Positions 18,987-23,780 of a stretch of DNA of 46,534 nt are shown here, one piece after another. The DNA is from a virus. The notes under the pieces are model-generated. The model made no database searches and was not told the DNA's origin. It saw nothing but the letters and a program-made list of their open reading frames with translations. The DNA is taken from IMG/VR virus record IMGVR_UViG_3300020603_000032, positions 1 through 46,534 of that record; one strand, written 5' to 3'. How positions within the stretch are numbered: position 1 is the stretch's first letter; each line of letters starts with the position of its first letter. Made by a program: the position numbers and the translations under genes.

Positions 18987-19277
18987 GTGAAACGCGCTGC
19001 AAAAACTGATCATAATCAAGGTGATATTGTAGACGCCCTACGAAAGTATGGGGCGTATGTACGCTATCTTTCGCAGGGGGATGGCCTGCCCGATCTGTTG
19101 GTGGGATACAACGGGGAGACCATTTTGATGGAGGTGAAGGACGGCTCGAAGCCTCCTTCGCAGACCCGGCTGACAGACCGTGAGTTGAAGTTCTTCGAGG
19201 AGTGGAAGGGGGGCAAGTTGTATATTGTCTACAGTGTGCAGGAGGCTCTTGACATCCTCGACTTGACAAGGGGTTGA
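18987..19277 (+). CDS. VRR-NUC domain nuclease
   Basis: 96 residues. GDGLPDLLVGYNGETILMEV followed by KDG gives the PD and ExK catalytic pattern of VRR-NUC proteins, the virus-type restriction fold also seen in FAN1 and small phage Holliday junction nucleases. A standalone VRR-NUC of this length is typical of phages, where it probably cleaves branched DNA. The start is GTG at 18987 with no clear Shine-Dalgarno, close to the operator palindrome. It is transcribed away from the recombination operon, alone on its strand, and is followed by the structured non-coding region. Confidence 0.88.
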   Translation: MKRAAKTDHNQGDIVDALRKYGAYVRYLSQGDGLPDLLVGYNGETILMEVKDGSKPPSQTRLTDRELKFFEEWKGGKLYIVYSVQEALDILDLTRG

Positions 19278-19700
19278 GGGCGGGTTATAGTTCTCTCGTT
19301 GTCGTCACAGTTGTAGGAGCGGGGACCAAAGTTCGCCCCGTGGAAGTGGGACTCAGAACCCAGCCGACCGACGATTAACTGGCTCAGGTAGACCGCATTA
19401 AAAGCCGCCGTAACTGAGTGAGAGCGCCACGGGGGACTGTCATAGGCGCAACTGACATGAGTGACCTCGAAAGAGGGATGGCTGACCAGGACAGGGGCGT
19501 CGCAGCGCCGTAACAGCCATAGCGGAGATATGCGTAAAACTCCCGCGCCAATTCCGTAGGCTCGTCCGAGCGGCGTGAATCGGTACTCACTGGGCTGGAC
19601 TCACCTCCAGCTAGGTGAGTATTTTGCCTGCAAGCCGAGGCTGAACCGGCAGCGTAAATTAATAGATGTTACCTAATATAGATTTTCTTTTTTTTGCCCA
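19278..19700 (+). ncRNA. Candidate large structured non-coding RNA
   Basis: About 420 bases without a plausible gene but dense in inverted repeats. Stems I can pair: 19320-19324 with 19336-19340; 19383-19387 with 19414-19418; 19424-19428 with 19445-19449; 19465-19468 with 19473-19476 closed by a GAAA tetraloop; 19478-19484 with 19514-19520 (7 bp, ATGGCTG/CAGCCAT) enclosing 19496-19499 with 19506-19509; 19560-19563 with 19568-19571; 19585-19590 with 19615-19620 enclosing 19594-19598 with 19607-19611; 19625-19628 with 19648-19651. A T-run follows at 19682-19695. The GNRA-type GAAA loop favours the plus strand. It does not match tmRNA, RNase P RNA or a tRNA as far as I can tell. GOLLD- or ROOL-like phage RNAs are the nearest idea, but I cannot identify the class. 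Confidence 0.55.
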
Positions 19701-20957: not shown

Positions 20958-21395
20958 TTATGCTTCCCATAAAAGTTTTTGACCTCGCAATAAAGCATCG
21001 GTATCAATCCTCGGTCGCGATGTCGTATTCCAATTGCCCCCCCCGCGCAATCCTATGCATTTCCAATTTGATGCTCGCAAAGACGCGCCGCCTTCTCCAG
21101 GCAATGTGTAGGTAATTAATCGCCGATACCCCAAGGCTTTTGCAGCTCGCCATGCGGCAGAATAAAGCATTGAACATGCATTCTTTGTCCCATCAGTACA
21201 ACATCGATTGACTTCAAGGGTCCAACCATCATCGAGCAATCGGGCTACGGGCCGACCAACAATAGCAACGCCAACCACTTTGTCTTCGGATACGGCCACG
21301 CAGAATTTGCAACCGGGCATGGGTTTGTGATGCCGATGATGAATGGCCACAAAAGCATTTGCTTCATCCAAATTAATTGGGGTAATTTCCATCAT
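20958..21395 (-). CDS. XF1762-like / GNAT-like phage protein
   Basis: About 145 residues. MEITPINLDEANAFVAIHHR, KFCVAVSEDKVVGVAIVGRP, EVNRCCTDGTKNACSMLYSA and LGYRRLITYTLPGEGGASLR match the pattern of XF1762-type proteins, short phage and prophage proteins with an acetyltransferase-like (GNAT) core. A substrate has not been established. Two consecutive ATGs (21395 and 21392) are the likely start; no strong Shine-Dalgarno precedes them. The gene is separated by only a base or two from the next one in the leftward cluster. Confidence 0.8.
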   Translation of the reverse strand: MMEITPINLDEANAFVAIHHRHHKPMPGCKFCVAVSEDKVVGVAIVGRPVARLLDDGWTLEVNRCCTDGTKNACSMLYSAAWRAAKALGYRRLITYTLPGEGGASLRASNWKCIGLRGGGNWNTTSRPRIDTDALLRGQKLLWEA

Positions 21396-21412
21396 TATCA
21401 ATCATGTTTCGC

Positions 21413-21655: not shown

Positions 21656-21755
21656 CGTCCTTTCCTGTGCTTCATTTAGTTTCATGGGGTTCATAGCTTA
21701 AATGGATTATTAAACATCGATTTAGGGACGGTAATGCGATCCTAATAGCCTGGTT

Positions 21756-22970
21756 GTTTCAATCTAGGGTGATGGTTCTCTCTCTGGGGCTGTTTCAATC
21801 TAGGATCATGGTTCTCTCAACGGCATCGTTTCAATCATCGCGCATGGTTTTCTCGTATATCCGGTTTCAATCTGTCCGGCTGGTGCTCTATCGGCCAATG
21901 TTTCAATCTAAGGGCGTGGTGCTCTCCATGGAACTGTTTCAATCTGCGGGCGTGGTGCTCTACCGTCAAGTGTTTCAATCTCATCAAGTGGTGCTCTCTT
22001 GCCGGGTGTTTCAATCTGGACGATTGGTGCTCTCAGTTCGCGTGTTTCAATCCTTCAGCTTGGTGTTCTCAAGGCAGGCGTTTCAATCTACATGTATGGG
22101 GCGCTCTGAGCGTGTGTTTCAATCTTGGTCACTGGTACTCTTGGAGATGGTGTTTCAATCTTTTGCTCTGGTGCTCTCTTTTATGGTGTTTCAATCTCAA
22201 GACGTGGTGCTCTCCGATCAATTGTTTCAATCATCGCCAATGGTGCTCTCGGTTTCAGTGTTTCAATCGATCAGCTTGGTTCTCTCACCGAGAGTGTTTC
22301 AATCGTTGAACTTGGTACTCTCGCCGTGGAGGTTTCAATCTTCAAAAGTGGTGTTCTCTTCGGAGCTGTTTCAATCCGCTCAAATGGTGCTCTCGGTTTT
22401 ATTGTTTCAATCTTTTCGAATGGTGCTCTCATGCGCTGTGTTTCAATCTGTCTATATGGTACGCTCGTGGAGCGTGTTTCAATCTGCTTGAGTGGTGCTC
22501 TCGTGGATCGTGTTTCAATCTGCTGGAGTGGTGCTCTCGTGGATCGTGTTTCAATCTGCTGGAGTGGTGCTCTCCCTAACGGTGTTTCGATCTTTCGATC
22601 TGGTGCTCTCGGGCGTTTTGTTTCAAACGCCATATATGGTGCTCTTGTTTCAATCTAAAGCTTTGGAACTCTCTTGGCTGATGTTTCAATCCAACAAAGT
22701 GGTGCTCTCTCAGCACTTGTTTCAATCTGCTTGAGTGGTGCTCTCCCGATAACTGTTTCAATCTAATGCGTTGGTGCTCTCCCGTTAAGTGTTTCAATCT
22801 CGACCATTGGTGCTCTCGTGGTCGTTGTTTCAATCTGGCCGATTGGTGCTCTCGTTGTCGTTGTCTCAATCCTGCTCTGTGGTGCTCTCGGTAACAGTGT
22901 TTCAATCTCTGTTTGTGGTGCGCTCCATAGCACTGTTTCAATCTGGGGATATGGCGCTCTCCTATCTGAT
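21756..22970. repeat. Array of 34 tandem 36-bp units with two conserved boxes and two variable segments
   Basis: Every unit has the form GTTTCAATC (box A), 8 nt, TGGTGCTCTC (box B), 9 nt. Box A is exact in 31 of 34 units and box B exact in 18, with its TGG constant in all. The two inner segments differ in almost every unit, apart from a T that usually follows box A and a T that usually precedes the next one. Period is exactly 36 bp except at 22620-22646, where the unit lacks its last 9 nt. No frame is open across the whole array on the plus strand: TGA in units 21 and 28 breaks one frame, and TAG or TAA in units 1, 2, 5, 26 and 29 breaks another. The minus frames I inspected are also interrupted, so the array is non-coding. 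Segments do not pair with each other inside a unit. It is not a CRISPR array: spacers are far too short. Confidence 0.96.
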
Positions 22971-22973
22971 GTT

Positions 22974-23780
22974 TTAATGAGGCGGAGGAATAAAGTGGGC
23001 GTGATTCAAATGCGCAATCGCGTAAGGCAACGGAGGCGGGGTATTGAAATGCCGCTGATACCACTCTCCATGCAGGTGGGAGAGGAAAAGCTTTACAGCG
23101 TAACGTCGGGCACGGGCATCAAGTTGTGCAGGAGGCAGCAATCCCGATGAGTAAGACTTGTATGCATCGGTGGTTTTTCCAAACCTCCCGGATTCTGCAA
23201 TAGAAATTGCAAGCTCGCGATTGGCACCAGATTCATTTCGTGAAACCTCGTATTCTTTTCTTTGTTTGTAAACGTGTCCATAAAAACAGTCATCCCGGTT
23301 GGAAAATTTCATGAAAGACTGCCCAATTTTCCAGCATAAAGACTTGAGGCGAGCATTCCACGGGCGTATCTCACCTTTGCGCCAAGAGGTCGTAGGGTCC
23401 AAACCCGCAAAGCGCCAGATGTGCCCAACCGTGGGGGCTTTTTCGATGTTGATGTGTGCCAGCAATCCGGCAGAAATGACAGGACCGATCCCATAGACCT
23501 CCCGTGCCCAGCCTCCCATGATATGAGATTGTGTGTATGCGTTAAGCGCTTTCCGTATTTCTTCTTCGAGCGTAGAGGTTTGGAGAGTCAGCCAGCCGAT
23601 GACGCTGCTAGGCTCTCCGGTTTTTGTGAGAGCGCGAACCTGATTGCCTCCACGTTTGCGATCCTCTTGTGCGATATAGTAGTAGTCAACCAGAAACCGG
23701 ACTTCGCGAGCGGTGAGTGTTTTGGCCGCCAACTTTAAGTCTTTGGTTAGTTTTTGCAACGATTCCATGTTAGATTCCAT
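22974..23780 (-). CDS. IS110-type transposase C-terminal-domain protein (Transposase_20-like), no DEDD domain
   Basis: 268 residues. Residues 97-128 (GIGPVISAGLLAHI to RFAGLDP) and 129-156 (TTSWRKGE, NARLKSLCWKIGQSF) follow the helix-hairpin-helix Transposase_20 domain of IS110 recombinases, whose IS621 member is guided by a bridge RNA. The N-terminal 90 residues are helical and show no DEDD RuvC-like catalytic pattern. A serine (S132) lies in the region where IS110 enzymes carry functional serines, but I cannot align it with certainty. The C-terminus is His/Pro-rich. The start has GGAG six bases upstream. The stop codon lies inside a degenerate box A of the array, so the array is directly in its 3' untranslated region. 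No terminal inverted repeats or IS ends are seen. Confidence 0.8.
   Translation of the reverse strand: MESNMESLQKLTKDLKLAAKTLTAREVRFLVDYYYIAQEDRKRGGNQVRALTKTGEPSSVIGWLTLQTSTLEEEIRKALNAYTQSHIMGGWAREVYGIGPVISAGLLAHINIEKAPTVGHIWRFAGLDPTTSWRKGEIRPWNARLKSLCWKIGQSFMKFSNRDDCFYGHVYKQRKEYEVSRNESGANRELAISIAESGRFGKTTDAYKSYSSGLLPPAQLDARARRYAVKLFLSHLHGEWYQRHFNTPPPLPYAIAHLNHAHFIPPPH

Follow-up and report, generated by a model that had tools for sequence, protein, structure and literature searches.

What is the function of the approximately 400 nt that follow the VRR-NUC gene of a phage, where stems abound and no gene is apparent? The region (positions 19278-19700) belongs to IMG/VR virus record IMGVR_UViG_3300020603_000032, analyzed here at its full length of 46,534 nt (the window). 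Our analysis shows that positions of about 19298-19660 on the plus strand are the likely extent of a conserved structured non-coding RNA of about 370 nt behind a strong sigma-70 promoter, which is near certain to represent a previously undescribed, pseudoknotted family of phage RNAs and, judging by its sequence, is presumably made as a transcript. The family carries an internal stretch that co-varies with DNA at the end of the RNA and tends to lie where strand composition flips, which suggests that this self-matching RNA helps to start phage DNA replication.

The claim of the original prediction that the region holds no plausible gene agrees with the comparison of homologues. In 24 aligned homologous sequences all sense frames contain stops (about 5 on average), any one antisense frame is open in at most two of the 24, and gap lengths, mostly not multiples of three, also contradict protein coding. 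Antisense open reading frames observed at 45 loci were dismissed because of their ragged ends. A tRNA search of positions 19278-19700 found none. The proposed lack of a known RNA class was likewise upheld by the Rfam search suggested with it, which yielded no match to these positions at the gathering score and one chance match only at E <= 10.

The family was traced from a weak 51-base blastn match in phage MW202426.1, where both strands of one stem have changed while the loop, ACCAAAGUUCG, is invariant. Pattern scans built on this match and on the core of the RNA produced 15, 63, 81 and 65 viral stretches, and a profile search found the core at 80 loci (a few weak matches and duplicates included), a 5' module at 85 and both at 60. 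The homologous cores, 70-odd in number, come nearly all from IMG/VR contigs, which are metagenomic, with the addition of two Burkholderiales genomes, Lampropedia aestuarii (YIM MLB12) and Variovorax ginsengisoli (DS1607), the only real ones among 24 genome-contig matches of the short pattern, which were mostly due to chance. The hosts are therefore probably Burkholderiales. Plasmid and phage nucleotide searches gave no further copies of the RNA type found in the window (body A).

The folding stability of the region does not exceed that of shuffled sequence (z-scores of -0.77 for the plus strand and -1.03 for the minus strand), and thus the stems originally counted by eye are insufficient evidence. 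Under an R-scape-like null, few covarying pairs were significant, the sequences belonging to few clades, and for this reason we applied a helix test with anchors fixed on conserved sequence, the shuffled controls being given the same optimization (22 distinct sequences, 88 controls). Helices H5, H6 and H8 together pair at 14 of 14 positions in 21 of the 22 sequences (mean 13.86), and in none of the controls (mean 10.92). Distinct fully paired versions of the strands number nine for H8 and five each for H3 and H5. On this comparative evidence, the compensatory changes prove a pseudoknotted RNA fold, with a core of helices H3 to H9 in which H5/H6 interleave with H8 (Table 1). The stems named originally are present and have support from compensatory changes: the 7-bp stem enclosing a hairpin is H8 around H9, the CCTC-GAAA-GAGG hairpin is H7, and a 3' hairpin is present where a nested double hairpin was proposed (about 19585-19620). 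The search for compensatory base changes among homologues, suggested together with these stems, has thus found them.

Being phage-borne, large, pseudoknotted and devoid of an obvious or shared protein partner, the RNA is similar in kind to GOLLD and ROOL, as had been noted originally, and might accordingly form RNA-only assemblies. However, the covariance models of both families give no match, even at E <= 10; the RNA is smaller, has other conserved elements, and differs in its hallmark, the self-matching stretch described below. Moreover, an Rfam scan of six other body A loci found neither GOLLD/ROOL nor RF02932. We consider membership in this kind highly improbable.

The hallmark is a direct repeat: one copy lies inside the RNA, about 50 nt ahead of the point where the last hairpin ends, and the other follows that hairpin by about 25 nt. 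The matched length is 6-14 nt in most lineages, and the internal and downstream copies co-vary: identical copies in different lineages are AACTAGCATA, TCGGCATGG, CGGATAGA and AAGTATATG, while in one differing pair CCAGTCGGGGTGATTT stands against CCAATCGGGGTAATTT; type F, an RNA considered below, has the pair AAGAGGAAGTT/AAGAGGAACTT. The mean match score for body A is 7.7 within loci vs 4.7 with tails swapped between loci, and for another type, body B, it is 7.2 vs 5.2. From 40 nt past the last hairpin, the AT content across homologues rises to 0.62-0.66. Since the internal stretch matches the downstream DNA, the RNA could base-pair at that site with the template strand. Several mismatches consist of G in the internal copy and A in the tail, and these would be tolerable, because RNA on the template strand allows G-T wobble. 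No consistent complement of the internal stretch was found inside the RNA, the region upstream of it not being consistently complementary, and therefore ordinary RNA pairing cannot explain the repeat in general. A model of two strands competing for one internal complement was rejected, as the duplex energies, apart from a few lineages, are no better than those with guides of other loci.

A short internal stretch that is identical to flanking DNA, varies between loci and is of near-guide length resembles the guides of IS110 bridge RNAs and TIGR RNAs, so that the RNA could be the guide, similar to a bridge RNA or an omega RNA, of a mobile element or nuclease directed by RNA, with the tail as its target site; moreover, a candidate Tas protein is encoded together with a TIGR-like array in a subset of five genomes. 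Still, the IS110 family PF01548 occurs in none of 28 records (the window and 27 others with RNAs of this group), which leaves the proposed service to an IS110-like protein without support. Nor is the RNA array-derived; the candidate Tas protein is limited to 5 of 18 carriers, no protein is common to all of them, and the body is swapped at a fixed slot of related phages, not at scattered sites. A guide function of this type is thus quite improbable.

We tentatively prefer, at somewhat less than an even chance, an RNA linked to the replication origin that acts in cis by forming an RNA-DNA hybrid, as the ColE1 primer does. The folded RNA would display a short segment with the same sequence as the DNA immediately past its last hairpin; this segment would base-pair with the template strand of the tail, and the hybrid, stabilized beside the AT-rich zone, would open the DNA or provide a primer, as in the case of ColE1 RNA II. 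That a hybrid forms and that the origin is primed or opened at the tail is what we infer from the sequences. According to Masukata and Tomizawa (1990), an internal loop of RNA II reportedly pairs with the template strand. In function, the closest precedent is ColE1 RNA II (PMC11012335). The two RNAs are alike in the same-strand promoter directly upstream (in the window) and in an internal stretch that, in bodies A and B, could base-pair with the DNA template close to the 3' end, while the phage RNA differs in having no sequence relation to RNA II, in being phage-borne, in its pseudoknotted core, and in a matching stretch that varies with lineage.

The position of the RNA in the genome was assessed by cumulative GC skew, for which contigs cut near the RNA are uninformative. 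The minimum in the RNA orientation is 46-800 bp from the RNA in four of 16 genomes. With correction for gene strand, seven of the 16 have it within about 1.5 kb, at distances of 46, 77, 183, 797, 1008, 1405 and 1410 bp, although the gene-strand switch in those seven is 2-11 kb away. The Kolmogorov-Smirnov test of these distances, devised post hoc after the repeat had been seen and with contigs treated as circular, gives p = 0.003 with gene-strand correction and p = 0.0005 for raw skew. For types E and F, RNAs that occupy the same slot, the minimum is 37-167 bp from the RNA in four of seven further genomes. Together, the internal copy and the skew flip near the RNA suggest, without proving, a role in the start of replication. 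In the largest group, a gene encoding a replication initiation protein C-terminal domain is directly downstream of the RNA, and in MW202426 ParB-helicase-primase is just upstream. No phage protein is common to all carriers (the best family is found in 11 of 18 RNA-bearing genomes), which fits the use of host enzymes.

Several observations weigh against a role at the origin. In the window, the skew minimum is 3.6-4.5 kb from the RNA, and body C in genome G020 shows reversed polarity; besides the post hoc nature of the test, transcription is also able to produce skew. One initiator gene family adjoins body A and types E and F, and thus it is largely from one phage group that the evidence of nearby replication genes comes. 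The repeat of the window is identical at nine of 11 positions only, and in some lineages it is 5-6 nt long or doubtful; several genomes have no match between the internal stretch and the tail, the match is weaker in body C, and type E has no clear direct repeat. One lineage has C in the internal copy and T in the tail, which does not fit wobble on the template, and some lineages allow part of the guide to pair with upstream positions of the RNA.

The RNA is built of modules, and the 5' module is also found ahead of bodies B, C and D, of which body B is a match (E-values from 1e-13 to 1e-17) to the orphan Rfam family Betaproteobacteria-1 (RF02932). Phage loci matching RF02932 have this module directly before the match; it is an observation of the present analysis (pattern scan and sequences) and lies outside the Rfam definition. 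They also have a direct repeat of the same logic, GGCUCCG-X ... CACCA-X. The window and other body A RNAs differ from RF02932 in having no match to the model and in their core fold and 3' domain. Three chromosomal copies of Betaproteobacteria-1 in one Burkholderiales genome, G677 (L261, L267, L268), lack the 5' module, and their repeats are weak or missing.

Exchange of bodies was observed among relatives gathered via the downstream initiation gene of the largest group. Among 57 close relatives with enough upstream sequence, body A is present in 20 and other RNAs in 37 (type E in 21, type F in 16), one of the three types filling the same slot in 57 of 57. The RNAs of types E and F are likewise preceded in the slot by a strong, similar promoter and by a U-run hairpin. 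Type E (GCATGGATGGCTTGGAAGAGAACACCGACATCAGG...; L276, L291, L296, L298, L322, L350) has no Rfam match in the loci scanned and no clear self-matching direct repeat. Type F (L284, L295, L299, L316, L331, L348) has a Betaproteobacteria-1-like 3' domain, the repeat AAGAGGAAnTT and no Rfam match in L284 and L295, the loci scanned. A long conserved hairpin that ends in a U-run is seen about 100-180 nt upstream of the core at most loci (L089, L101, L123, L002 and others), though not in the window; it may represent a terminator or a small RNA in its own right.

In the largest group the RNA is located between a strong promoter and early/replication genes, behind the U-run hairpin, and different RNAs are swapped in one slot like early control modules. 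Both features would suit a leader that acts in cis on the early operon, such as an antiterminator of the put kind, which would modify RNA polymerase. We regard such a leader as improbable: the next downstream gene is on the opposite strand in the window, L101, L120, L122, L134 and L138, the U-run hairpin is upstream of the RNA rather than downstream, and antitermination is not known to involve such a guide copy. As for promoters, three promoter-like sites were observed in the region vs 0.7 expected, and the initiator-gene group has a conserved TTGACA-15-TATAAT upstream of the RNA; a simple scan found no promoter upstream of the RNA in several other loci.

The main rival of a role at the origin, itself rather unlikely, is a trans-acting phage RNA that, alone or with a host protein, manipulates the host as a decoy, counter-defence or regulator, the terminal copy serving RNA processing or maturation. 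The RNA often stands alone, with no same-strand gene directly after it in the window and L101-type loci, occurs in many different neighbourhoods and has no phage protein common to its carriers, while its bodies are swappable, as an arms race would predict. What a trans-acting RNA leaves unexplained is the lineage-by-lineage tracking of the downstream DNA by the internal stretch, and the skew minimum at the RNA.

Table 1. Features of the structured RNA and its flanks (window coordinates)
Feature	Position	Strand	Basis or remark
Sigma-70 promoter TTGACA-17-TATAGT	19263-19291	+	11/12 consensus positions; overlaps the 3' end of the VRR-NUC gene
Structured RNA, body type A	19298-19660	+	70-odd homologous cores; covariation; ends inferred
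5' module	19320-19365	+	common to other bodies
Hairpin H1, loop ACCAAAGUUCG	19320-19324/19336-19340	+	covaries CG/UA/GC
Hairpin H2 (GUGGGACUCAGAACCCA)	19347-19350/19359-19362	+	part of 5' module
Helix H3 around conserved UAGACCG...CCGCCGUAA	19382-19387/19414-19419 (19382-19419)	+	five fully paired versions
Helix H4, loop holds 5' strand of H5	19424-19428/19445-19449 (19424-19449)	+	alignments
Long-range helix H5	19437-19441/19490-19494	+	CTGTC/GACAG, CTATC/GATAG, CCTTC/GAAGG, CCATC/GATGG
Helix H6, stacked on H5	19452-19454/19487-19489	+	CCC/GGG, CCG/CGG, CTG/CAG
Hairpin H7 CCUC-GAAA-GAGG	19465-19476	+	alignment: mostly GNRA-type loops, stems vary
Helix H8, pseudoknot with H5/H6	19478-19484/19514-19520	+	nine fully paired versions
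Hairpin H9, then conserved GUAA	19496-19509	+	alignment
Internal copy GCGGCGTGAAT (guide-like)	19570-19580	+	9/11 identical to terminal copy; both differences G to A
3' hairpin with conserved CACU...AGGUGAGU	19584-19628	+	alignment
Terminal copy GCAGCGTAAAT (tail)	19649-19659	+	repeats the internal copy GCGGCGTGAAT at 9/11 positions
AT-rich stretch ending in TTTTCTTTTTTTT	19660-19696	+	AT rise across homologues

Among neighbouring genes, VRR-NUC was rejected as a partner, as the RNA is absent from the other VRR-NUC neighbourhoods fetched, except for a contig identical to the window there. The initiation proteins of L246 (17523-17888) and its relatives, 120-147 aa long, match the C-terminal third of phrog_9474 only, without the N-terminal part. 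The RNA was considered as a substitute for the missing DNA-binding domain of the initiator; the same short initiator is found beside A, E and F, which neither supports nor refutes this. In the window, positions 21740-22970 hold a tandem array GTTTCAATCT-N8-TGGTGCTCTC-N9, whose units recur about every 36 nt and contain two short spacers each, which fits the description of TIGR arrays (PMC12045711), and the open reading frames called over it are translations of the array. The adjoining gene (22974-23780, minus strand) encodes a 268-aa protein that matches phrog_4285 'transposase', is probably the one originally called IS110-like, and is a candidate Tas protein; it co-occurs with the array in five of 18 RNA-bearing genomes. 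A Mom-like DNA modification protein is encoded at 20958-21401 (minus strand), and positions 6680-6761 of L130 match the orphan Rfam family Proteo-phage-1.

A broader, somewhat unlikely generalization is a class of phage origins in which large RNAs take the place of an origin-binding protein as the defining element; several distinct folds, exchangeable in one slot, would find the origin by the internal copy of its sequence and open it by invading the template strand. Should the RNA indeed act at the origin, phage replication could start by RNA-guided recognition of the origin, a mode that the literature searched does not describe, and the orphan family Betaproteobacteria-1 would gain a function. 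For GOLLD, ROOL and other large phage RNAs no function has been settled, and the present family offers a concrete lead: an internal stretch tracking the DNA at the RNA's own end, exchangeable scaffolds, and a flip of strand composition.
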